Source: Flavobacterium endophyticum
GTDB taxonomy: Bacteria > Bacteroidota > Bacteroidia > Flavobacteriales > Flavobacteriaceae
Length of the DNA stretch: 64,000 nucleotides
Direction of reading: 5' to 3'
Assembly (NCBI RefSeq): GCF_003634455.1
Contig: NZ_RBLC01000001.1
Span: 2,002,417 to 2,066,416 of the forward strand
The first letter of the stretch is position 1; every line of letters starts with the position of its first letter. The notes beneath the pieces are model-generated. The model was not told the origin of the DNA. It saw only the letters and a list, made by a program, of their open reading frames with translations, and searched no databases. Of the stretch, positions 53,853 through 56,944 are shown piece after piece. The position numbers were made by a program, and so were the translations under genes.

Positions 53853-55037
53853 ATGAATACCTCTGCCCTAAAGCCTAATCCTATATATAATGTTCATTTC
53901 GGATTAGTATGCTTAAGCTCCTTGTTGTTTTCTGCAAGTTTTAATATGCTGATTCCGGAATTGCCAGAATATTTGAGCAGTATGGGTGGCGCGGAATACA
54001 AAGGATTGATTATCGCGCTTTTTACATTAACTGCAGGGATTTCTCGTCCGTTCAGCGGAAGGCTGACAGATACTTTGGGAAGGGTTCCGGTAATGGCGGT
54101 GGGTTCAATCGTATGTTTTGTTTGTGGTATTCTTTATCCGGTATTGGGAACTGTTTCAGGATTTTTATTCTTGAGATTGGTTCACGGATTTTCTACGGGT
54201 TTTAAACCCACGGCAACTGCGGCTTATGTTGCCGATATCATTCCGCGAGAGCGCTGGGGCGAAGCTTTGGGCATCCACGGGCTTTGCTTTAGTACGGGGA
54301 TGGCTATCGGCCCAGCCATCGGAAGTACGATCAAATTGCACTTTTCAATGGACATGTTGTTTTACGCGTCTTCTGCCTTTGCACTTTTGTCTATCATTAT
54401 TTTAATGAACATGAAGGAAACCTTGCAACACAAACATCGTTTTAGCCTTCATGTTTTGAAAATTTCACGAAAAGATATCATTGCTAAAGAAGTATTGCCT
54501 GCGGCAGTCGTTACTTTTCTGGCTTATATGGCTTATGGGGTAATCTTGACGCTGATTCCAGATTGGAGTCAGTTTTTGGGGATTGCCAACAAAGGGATGT
54601 TTTTTATGGTTTTCACGATTACGTCGTTGCTGATTCGTTTTGGTGCCGGAAAAGCTTCAGATAAGTACGGACGCCTGAAACCGATGAGTATAGGACTAGG
54701 AATCTTAATTATTTCCTTAATTGTTGTCGCTTTTTCTGATTCTATTGCTGGCCTTCTGACGGGAGCGGCTTTGTATGGAATCGCAACGGGAATTGTTTCG
54801 CCTGCTTTAAATGCATGGACGGTCGATATGAGCTATCCGGAGCATCGAGGTAAGGCTATGGCTACGATGTATATTGCTCTTGAAGCTGGGATTGGCCTTG
54901 GAGCTTTATTTGCAGGCTGGGTATACCAAGATGTAATTGCTAAAATTCCGATGATAATGTATTTGAGTGCCGGAACGACTTTCTTGGCTCTGGCTTATGT
55001 TTGGTTTTTCATTAGAAAAAACAAAGCCACAGTTTAG
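53853..55037 (+). CDS. MFS transporter, substrate unknown
   Basis: The 394-residue protein has about twelve membrane helices. The loop after TM2 carries GRLTDTLGRVPVM (MFS motif A), the matching loop in the second half has GKASDKYGRLKPMS, and TM5 has the Gly/Pro-rich run GLCFSTGMAIGPAIGS. This is the general drug/sugar-efflux type; substrate is not readable. It converges on the PL6-type lyase gene. Whether it moves lyase products is not known, and its own promoter has no copy of the palindrome found at the lyase gene. Confidence 0.85.
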   Translation: MNTSALKPNPIYNVHFGLVCLSSLLFSASFNMLIPELPEYLSSMGGAEYKGLIIALFTLTAGISRPFSGRLTDTLGRVPVMAVGSIVCFVCGILYPVLGTVSGFLFLRLVHGFSTGFKPTATAAYVADIIPRERWGEALGIHGLCFSTGMAIGPAIGSTIKLHFSMDMLFYASSAFALLSIIILMNMKETLQHKHRFSLHVLKISRKDIIAKEVLPAAVVTFLAYMAYGVILTLIPDWSQFLGIANKGMFFMVFTITSLLIRFGAGKASDKYGRLKPMSIGLGILIISLIVVAFSDSIAGLLTGAALYGIATGIVSPALNAWTVDMSYPEHRGKAMATMYIALEAGIGLGALFAGWVYQDVIAKIPMIMYLSAGTTFLALAYVWFFIRKNKATV

Positions 55038-55047
55038 TGTGGCTTTT
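55023..55047. terminator. shared hairpin terminator over the MFS stop codon
   Basis: AAAGCCACA pairs with TGTGGCTTT across a 6-nt loop. The MFS stop codon lies in the loop (55035-55037). T runs follow on both strands, so it can also end the convergent lyase transcript. Confidence 0.78.
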
Positions 55048-55064
55048 GCTTTCGATATTATAAT

Positions 55065-55076
55065 TTGGTTAACCAA
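55065..55076. promoter_or_regulatory. palindrome TTGGTTAACCAA downstream of the lyase gene
   Basis: A perfect 12-bp palindrome, identical to the one at 56928-56939 upstream of the same gene. It lies between the lyase stop codon (55079) and the shared terminator, so within the lyase 3' UTR. Likely a second site for the same regulator. Confidence 0.55.
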
Positions 55077-55078
55077 TA

Positions 55079-56860
55079 TTACTGTTTCATGATTTTATAA
55101 ATTCCTGATTTATTTGCTGTTTTTATTTTGGCAAAGTACAATCCTGCTGGCTGCTTTTCTAAGCTTATTTTAATCGTTCCAGAAATAGGAATATAAGTTT
55201 CTTCAGAAATTAATCGAGAATGTACGTCGTATATCGCTACAGTAGTTTCTTCCTGTGAGTCAAGGCTGATTTCAAAATTTCTTTTTGTTGGATTAGGATA
55301 GATGATTGCTTTCAGGATTTCTTGTTTATTTACTGAAAGCGCTTCTTCGTAAGCATTCGGACCGACGTCATTAATAGTCACAGGAAGATAAGCAACTGCT
55401 GCAGTACTATAATGATCTGCTCCGGCATTGCTTGTCGAAGGTCTTGCCTGGCCGTCGATGTCTTCGTTGATATTTAGCGTTGGGACGGCATTGCCAATAG
55501 TAGGAGACGAGCTGGTAGATTTCCATATTCCTCCGTTAATAGCAAGATTTGGATTTTGGACTACTGCTTGGCTCGTCGTAAAAGCTGGCCCTCCTTCGAT
55601 TAACTGTGCGCTTCCGGTCGGATATAAAATGTTATTGAGCCAAGTTACTTCTCCGAGCTGGTCGTTAAATATTTTAACTAGACTGTTTTGCGAGCCTGTT
55701 ACCAGATTGTTTGCTATGGTTATGTCTTCAAGTTTGATATTATAAGAGCCGTTTGATTTTGCGTAGCCAATCTGAATTCCGTAGGCGTTGTTGACTAGCG
55801 TATTATAAGCGACTGTTATTCGTTCTCCTCTAAAGTGCAAGCTAAAATCGGTGTCGATTCCAGTTCTTGCATCGCCTTGCGTGAGTGCAATCGGTGCGTC
55901 GAAAAGCGTTCCTTGAAGTCCTTCCAAATAGTTATTTTTAATCACATGGTCAGCACCATAAGCTCGAATTCCTCCAGTGTATATTGGTGTTGTTCCAAAC
56001 ATGCCATTAGGTTTGCCTCCGCCAAAAAAATAATTCCCTTCAGCAATATTCCGGTTGCCTTGACGCAAGGTCAATGAACCGTAATTTCTGTTGAATGTAT
56101 TGTGTCGTACAATGTTGTCGCATGATTTGACCGAAACAATTTCAGGATCTCCATCGCATTCCTCAAACAGGTTAAATTCTACGGTAGTAAAACCGCTCGA
56201 ATTACATAATTGGCTGTTTCCGATTCGAATAGCTTCTTTTTCATTTTCAAGTCTAGGACCATTGTTGTAGAAGTAATTGTGGTCAATTCGGTCGTATTGC
56301 GACTGCTGATTCACGGTCTGATCTTGATTATAAGTCCCGTCAATAGTAATGTAATTGCCTGCGGTAGTCTTGTTTTTAAAGATATTGTGATCGATCCTGT
56401 TGTGGTGGCTTAGAAACTGGAAGGTATAATCGTTGTAATAGCCTGCAACGACAAGCCATTTTATAGAATTTGTTGTCGTAAGCTCGAAGACATTCCGTGT
56501 AATTCTAATATTATTTGAGGCTTCAAGCTTGACTAATGTGTTATTGCTTTGGCAATTGAAGATAAATCCTTCCAGTATAATATGGGCTGATTTCTTAAAA
56601 ACAAAATGAGAATCGCCAGTAAAAGTAACGCCACCTACCGTTGCCGCTTTGATAGTAATTGGATTTTCTGCAGTTGCAATTTTGGTAAAGCTGCAGTAAA
56701 AGTCAGTATAAGTTCCGTTTGGAATTATAAATGTAGTTCCTGGCGCAGCGGCATTAACTTGCGTTTGCAGGCTGGTGTCGGTAGTGACATAGGTTTGTGA
56801 ATGTAGAGCGCTGCTCAATAGGAGTGCACAGAGGGTTGTAAAAAAGTATTTGACATGCAT
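55079..56860 (-). CDS. secreted PL6-type polysaccharide lyase (alginate or chondroitin) with T9SS signal
   Basis: PL6 enzymes cut uronate-containing chains, mostly alginate, some dermatan/chondroitin, by beta-elimination. The 593-residue protein has a signal peptide (about 1-22), a right-handed beta-helix (about 25-490), and a type A T9SS C-terminal domain (about 515-593, with IIYPNPTKRNFEISL, GLYFAKIKTANKSG). The family's catalytic pair is visible: Lys245 in IVSVKSCDN and Arg266 in GSLTLRQGNRN, as Lys250 and Arg271 in chondroitinase B. The metal-site region NGPRLENEKEAIRIGNSQ also fits. Alginate is the likelier substrate. No SusC/SusD or other lyase is near, so it is not in a classic utilisation locus. 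Confidence 0.85.
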   Translation of the reverse strand: MHVKYFFTTLCALLLSSALHSQTYVTTDTSLQTQVNAAAPGTTFIIPNGTYTDFYCSFTKIATAENPITIKAATVGGVTFTGDSHFVFKKSAHIILEGFIFNCQSNNTLVKLEASNNIRITRNVFELTTTNSIKWLVVAGYYNDYTFQFLSHHNRIDHNIFKNKTTAGNYITIDGTYNQDQTVNQQSQYDRIDHNYFYNNGPRLENEKEAIRIGNSQLCNSSGFTTVEFNLFEECDGDPEIVSVKSCDNIVRHNTFNRNYGSLTLRQGNRNIAEGNYFFGGGKPNGMFGTTPIYTGGIRAYGADHVIKNNYLEGLQGTLFDAPIALTQGDARTGIDTDFSLHFRGERITVAYNTLVNNAYGIQIGYAKSNGSYNIKLEDITIANNLVTGSQNSLVKIFNDQLGEVTWLNNILYPTGSAQLIEGGPAFTTSQAVVQNPNLAINGGIWKSTSSSPTIGNAVPTLNINEDIDGQARPSTSNAGADHYSTAAVAYLPVTINDVGPNAYEEALSVNKQEILKAIIYPNPTKRNFEISLDSQEETTVAIYDVHSRLISEETYIPISGTIKISLEKQPAGLYFAKIKTANKSGIYKIMKQ

Positions 56861-56900
56861 AGTGGTTGCGGTTTTTGGTTAAAATTTCCGTGTCTTCTTT

Positions 56901-56926
56901 TTATCCAAAAGTTGATTTTTGGATAA
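56901..56926. repeat. perfect inverted repeat in the lyase leader
   Basis: TTATCCAAAA (56901-56910) and TTTTGGATAA (56917-56926), 6-nt spacer. On the lyase transcript this would be a hairpin about 40 nt before the start codon; on DNA it could be a second protein site, beside the palindrome 1 bp away. Confidence 0.75.
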
Positions 56927-56927
56927 A

Positions 56928-56939
56928 TTGGTTAACCAA
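56928..56939. promoter_or_regulatory. operator-like palindrome TTGGTTAACCAA
   Basis: Perfect 12-bp palindrome that overlaps by 3 bp the -7 box of the lyase promoter, the position expected for a repressor site. Its identical twin is at 55065-55076. The regulator is not in the window. Confidence 0.65.
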
Positions 56940-56944
56940 ATATA
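56937..56944 (-). promoter_or_regulatory. -7 box of the lyase gene
   Basis: Minus strand TATATTTG, an exact TAnnTTTG match. Its last three bases are the first three of the palindrome. No good TTG -33 element upstream, which would fit a promoter that needs an activator or is tightly controlled. Confidence 0.55.

Follow-up and report, generated by a model that had tools for sequence, protein, structure and literature searches.

Which regulator, if any, acts on the palindrome at the promoter of the PL6-type lyase gene is the question raised by this part of the window, i.e., the whole stretch of 64,000 nucleotides analysed here. The lyase of 593 aa, with a Por_Secre_tail (T9SS) domain, is encoded on the minus strand at 55079..56860 according to ORF and Pfam data. 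Pfam matches were obtained for Chondroitinas_B (PF14592, 6.7e-51) and Por_Secre_tail (1.3e-11), and the best solved relative is the alginate lyase AlyGC (1.8e-39); due to the Chondroitinas_B and AlyGC matches, the name PL6-type given in the sequence-only reading stands. R241 of AlyGC is present in the structure comparison with the lyase. The candidate catalytic residues K245 and R266 of the lyase are invariant among 7 orthologues and show a spacing of 21, as do R241 of AlyGC and K220, which we take to be its partner. Judged from sequence, the lyase belongs to the PL6 family with alginate as predicted substrate, a family that also includes chondroitinase B. A terminator-like hairpin followed by GTTTTTT (55023..55046, minus strand) probably marks the end of the lyase transcript; one such hairpin was found in the part scanned, compared to a mean of 2.1 in shuffles, and it is weak evidence by itself.

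The perfect 12-bp palindrome TTGGTTAACCAA is located at 56928..56939, without strand assignment, where it covers the point at which transcription of the lyase gene is predicted to begin. As the sequence-only reading had claimed, it overlaps the -7 box TATATTTG in the lyase promoter (56937..56944, minus strand, read as 56944-56937) by three bases; positions and letters were confirmed, TTG at 56939-56937 being common to palindrome and minus-strand box. According to the excerpted text of PMC9723704, the flavobacterial sigma-A box TAnnTTTG spans -12 to -5, and therefore the lyase +1 would be expected near 56932, inside the operator, which would cover approximately -7 to +5 of the promoter. The predicted 5' leader, with an extent derived from the -7 box, thus comprises 56861..56932 on the minus strand. 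The half copy TTGGTTAA described earlier at 56875 is indeed present in this leader at 56875-56882; its role as a functional site was rejected, since it is 53 bp off the full site, compared to the 13-bp spacing of tandem copies in relatives, and it is probably meaningless. Directly behind the operator, the leader also contains a perfect 10-bp inverted repeat, TTATCCAAAA/TTTTGGATAA, with a 6-nt loop (56901-56926 of the window), the arms of which are similar to the operator half sites.

Two observations on the surroundings of the lyase gene were discarded. A 15-nt inverted repeat around the lyase, considered as a sign of an invertible cassette or mobile element, is mostly due to the palindrome, and none was found in the relatives examined. 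The MFS neighbour gene was dismissed as a regulon member as the window scan gave no [TC]TGGNNNNCCA[AG] match in the gap before it. This neighbour was found in 7 of 40 relatives; neither the lyase gene nor pdhB occurs within 1.5 kb of the MFS gene in G004, G020, G006, and G015 (G398 and G399 were left out).

A single FCD match was found in the genome. It belongs to a GntR/FCD regulator gene (C5:171169-171897) at the head of an alginate cluster on another contig than the lyase, with matches to the GntR HTH domain (PF00392, 1.1e-18) and to the FCD domain (PF07729, 1.3e-23). Thus the claim that control would act in trans agrees with the genome. The region C5:153831-174406 encodes, besides this regulator, a PL6 homologue, a PL17-type lyase, SusC, SusD, a KdgF-like cupin, an MFS protein, an SDR, a PfkB kinase, and a KDPG aldolase, and apparently constitutes a complete alginate route. 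If the contigs form one chromosome, arithmetic from the contig ends places lyase and cluster at least about 188 kb apart.

In the genome of 3,745,791 bases, exact copies of TTGGTTAACCAA occur only twice, 1.86 kb apart and flanking the lyase gene. Less stringent patterns are not enriched: with up to 2 mismatches to the palindrome, the window contains 2 sites versus 5.03 in shuffles; with up to 1 mismatch, the genome contains 14 sites versus 32 for the reversed control, and TTGGTNNACCAA gives 7 sites versus 8. Because the palindrome word is not enriched, placement rather than frequency carries weight. The pattern TTGGTYRACCAA occurs at 4 sites in the genome, two at the lyase, one on the gntR promoter (C5:171912), in register with a -7 box as at the lyase, and one ahead of the divergently oriented esterase gene (C5:172446). 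The arrangement of TATAT followed directly by TTGGTYAACCAA at the lyase operator recurs on the gntR promoter, and TATAT followed by TTGGTYAACCAATTTAT is common to both promoters, which read TATATTTGGTCAACCAATTTAT for gntR and TATATTTGGTTAACCAATTTAT for the lyase. The sequence-only reading had named further sites in front of alginate or uronate genes and of one regulator gene as support for a regulon: the other TTGGTYRACCAA sites are indeed situated at the GntR-type regulator gene and its divergent neighbour in the alginate cluster, but no site is located directly before susC or kdgF in this genome. A random distribution over the genome was not borne out, given that the exact copies flank the lyase and the remaining TTGGTYRACCAA sites belong to the gntR locus. 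Among the TTGGTNNACCAA sites, those at C1:264663 and C1:2117423 are located inside ORFs. The TTGGTNNACCAA-type site TTGGTATACCAA at C5:48709-48720 (L258:1510-1521) precedes a 143-aa ORF lacking a Pfam match, stands in promoter register with TACATTTG, as at the lyase, and is possibly a further target.

Lyase orthologues (E <= 1e-60) were detected in 7 of 398 genus genomes, including the window genome. For the other six, a regulator gene is located on the same contig, the two ORFs being separated by about 0.2 to 11 kb, and in all six relatives the lyase gene lies inside the alginate cluster; in the window genome it appears to have been displaced from the cluster. In addition, orthologues from named genomes were considered, namely the best 80 of 110 loci, of which 48 were read and 21 counted as Flavobacteriales on account of their titles; the remaining 32 have no flavobacterial title, and the 27 read loci that were left out include one, L183, with upstream sites. 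Four of the 21 are from genomes also in the genus sample. A site within 200 nt upstream was observed for 16 of the 21 flavobacterial orthologues (among the best 80 of 110 loci), versus 0.018 in mononucleotide shuffles (maximum 1 in 500), 0 of 21 with the reversed pattern, and 0.3 (maximum 2) in within-ORF control windows; conservation upstream of orthologous lyase genes, named earlier as a check on the palindrome, was thus found. In 10 of the 16 site-bearing orthologues, TAnnT is directly followed by TTGG in the register described above. The five orthologues without a site are L151, L152, L155, L156, and L174, of which L151 (F. rhamnosiphilum) is the closest by identity. In case of L151 and L152, the lyase gene directly follows gntR, and L174 has a degenerate array outside the search pattern. 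The PL6 homologues of L018 and L019 are preceded by sites as well, but these were rejected as operators, since by eye they are located inside the upstream coding sequence and represent shared codons.

Relatives of the regulator (E <= 1e-20) gave 31 matches in 21 of 398 genus genomes, and 30 of the 31 loci were examined. At all of the 6 closest regulator genes (79-100% identity, including that of the window genome), TTGGTYAACCAA begins 23-26 nt ahead of the ATG. The pattern [TC]TGGTNNACCA[AG] is situated close upstream at 22 of the 30 loci, two show only the variant TTGGNNNNCCAA, and six have no close upstream site, one of these with TTGGTTAACCAA 390 nt upstream. In the five closest other genomes, TTGGTYRACCAA occurs at 12 sites versus 28 for the reversed control; 10 of the 12 are the pair at the gntR locus, and the other two were left unread. 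A second regulator group (<=60% identity) accompanies tandem copies every 13 bp. The tandem form TTGGNNNNCCAAWTTGGNNNNCCA was detected in 20 of 396 genomes (reversed control 0). The second regulator group is present in 16 genomes, of which 15 are among these 20, the miss being G149 (76% complete); the 5 remaining genomes have one match each. Six cluster regions cover 116,506 bases, 15,277 of them outside ORFs of at least 80 aa. Of the 47 sites in these regions, 40 fall between genes, and 36 of the intergenic ones are located within 250 nt upstream of a start; in relatives, sites precede SusC-like and other cluster genes, as named by eye from the sequence.

Some further variation was noticed at these loci. 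In L115, L116, L118, and L119, tandem operators occur every 13 bp in up to three copies, and in some promoters the first of them overlaps TAnnTTTG. Several relatives contain two or three regulator paralogues in their genomes. A more divergent paralogue in L071 and L076 has LPPER instead of LPSER, and its upstream region contains TTGGCGCACCAA or TTGGAGTGCCAA, perhaps reflecting a changed specificity.

On the basis of the site itself, its -7 register, the match to the gntR promoter, the conservation at orthologues, and the position of the lyase gene, all by sequence, we consider it highly probable that 56928-56939 is an operator of the C5 GntR/FCD regulator and keeps the displaced lyase under the control of the cluster. 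A regulator dimer acting in trans would bind the palindrome and, positioned over approximately -7 to +5, would block RNA polymerase and hence transcription of the lyase gene. An intermediate of alginate breakdown might then release the dimer, as reported for AusR of Zobellia. The earlier proposal of a GntR-type repressor at this site is supported by the genome sites and by the conservation at orthologues, with binding as the predicted step.

That the palindrome arose by chance in AT-rich DNA is extremely improbable: similar patterns are not enriched genome-wide, as such an origin would have it, but the placement of the site and its conservation upstream of orthologues speak against it. Somewhat less remote, though still quite improbable, is the ownership of the site by another regulator, with the gntR promoter carrying it as a fellow target. 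The link between regulator and site is a genomic one, which leaves room for such an owner; against it, the tandem site form and the second regulator group co-occur in the genus sample, the 6 closest regulator genes carry the site in their own promoters, and the motif fits FadR-type sites. As described in the excerpt of PMC4494728, FadR-type regulators bind TKGT/ACMA palindromes in which GT and AC are 2-3 nt apart, the shorter gap being found in part of the groups. The A/T-rich site TTGGT-TA-ACCAA agrees with this FadR-subfamily consensus in its TKGT/ACMA boxes and, as in UxuR, its 2 nt between GT and AC; the taxonomy column in the same excerpt gives 0 for Bacteroidetes, a column taken from a headerless table to refer to the FadR subfamily.

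For the operator of the C5 regulator, the closest known system is AusR of Zobellia galactanivorans, a repressor from the GntR family that controls alginate use (Dudek et al. 2020; excerpts of PMC7874173, PMC8286568, and PMC8073546), which binds promoters via single, double, or triple operator copies (excerpt of PMC7874173). Common to both systems are a GntR-type regulator tied to alginate genes and single or tandem operators on several alginate promoters, the tandem form occurring here only in relatives; as far as the excerpts go, isolated genes besides operons are found in the Zobellia system as well. According to the same partial texts, AusR spares the lyase alyA7, whereas here the isolated lyase carries the site, and an operator copy behind a gene, present here, is absent from these accounts of AusR. 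The likeness is drawn from published descriptions rather than from the AusR sequence, an FCD domain, or operator letters. Our preferred reading is control in trans by an AusR-like repressor that would sit over the lyase transcription start. AusR-type control is already known from Zobellia, and the new aspect would be its place, on a lyase outside the cluster.

For Flavobacterium sp. UMI-01, the excerpt of PMC4306948 describes a cluster of two GntR-like genes, lyases, a KdgF-like gene, a permease, FlRed, a kinase, an aldolase, and SusC/D. Sites and arrays were found here before the genes of this cluster (G025/L172), and the excerpt contains no operator. Within a literature scope that left out most subscription journals and the primary AusR paper, published operator letters for Flavobacterium were not found; in PMC2996990 the motif letters occur in a primer only.

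Overlooked in the sequence-only reading was the second exact operator copy TTGGTTAACCAA at 55065..55076 (without strand assignment), located between the lyase stop codon, from which it is two bases away, and the terminator-like hairpin. Probably, this copy came along when the lyase gene left the cluster, or it represents a secondary binding site, the relic carried along being the leading idea. We give about even chances to the explanation that it once belonged to the promoter of an adjacent cluster gene and was moved, as a relic, together with the lyase gene, and that the upstream copy alone matters today. Behind the lyase gene of G234 and G293 there are indeed operators that belong to the gene after it, the lyase gene is near a regulator gene in 6 of 6 other genus genomes with an orthologue, and on the minus strand TAATATTG, which differs from TAnnTTTG by one base, stands before the 55065 copy in the same register. 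However, just 27 nt separate it from the MFS stop codon, without a visible remnant of another cluster gene, and a relic should decay, yet the palindrome is perfect. We regard it as unlikely that both exact copies form a functional unit in which the regulator occupies both gene ends and represses by DNA looping or a 3' roadblock. Besides these two, the genome has no perfect copy, and the downstream one precedes the terminator-like hairpin and is therefore probably inside the transcription unit, but the two are 1863 bp apart, and the sites behind the lyase gene in G234, G293, and likewise G025 are upstream sites of the next gene. To our knowledge, no looping has been described for FadR-type dimers. 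Sites behind the lyase gene were also observed in the named relatives L154, L165, and L176. A second isolated lyase gene flanked by sites was not encountered; the six genus relatives, in which the gene is part of the cluster, offer no comparable case.

At the gntR locus, a second element attracted attention. Among 396 genomes searched, five of the six closest contain exactly two copies of the sequence ATCGCTTN{1,2}GGGAAGTG, both on one strand, the first in the gntR-esterase gap and the second between gntR and susC; nine other genomes of the 396 contain a single copy. In all five genomes a terminator-like hairpin follows the first copy on the other strand, which in the window genome delimits a candidate sRNA of ~120 nt in the gntR-esterase gap (G000, C5:172195-172316; L046:7196-7317; plus strand), with the pairing partner at C5:171103-171118 in the gntR-susC leader. 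Duplexes with the own leader reach -71.6 to -75.9 kcal/mol, compared to shuffle means of -39 to -44. In case of G087, the own leader (-72.9) exceeds foreign leaders (-54.8 to -58.1). In the other four genomes, foreign partners often score equal or better, e.g., -80.8 for G000 with the leader of G372, and the specificity of the duplex is weakened accordingly. Neither pairing partner was found in G300, and the three loci scanned gave no Rfam match. The predicted sRNA fold shows weak covariation, and the terminator is the strongest argument in its favour. Alternatively, both elements may be sites on the DNA for a single protein, their similarity being maintained by conversion. Bacteroides sRNAs that repress susC mRNAs are known, e.g., FopS in the excerpt of PMC11697453.

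It is tempting to speculate, though we think it rather doubtful, that the uptake of alginate in this group of Flavobacterium is governed by two coupled layers, an AusR-like repressor working on the DNA and an sRNA transcribed in the gntR-esterase gap, whose pairing with the gntR-susC leader would extend over ~26 positions (one bulge). Of these layers, the window lyase would keep the first only and could act as a scout enzyme. Scanned with up to 3 mismatches, the window contains no counterpart of the paired element. For this reason the window lyase, whose gene has an operator at each end, could be produced independently of the transporter, if the two-layer model holds true.

The two-ended operator and the candidate sRNA pose concrete questions for the bench. 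For the genus, the analysis offers a candidate operator of Flavobacterium alginate control, which occurs as a single site with one regulator group and as 13-bp tandem arrays with another. A seemingly orphan enzyme was tied to a regulon from raw sequence, and in the window genome an enzyme gene outside its cluster would thus have retained the switch of the cluster.
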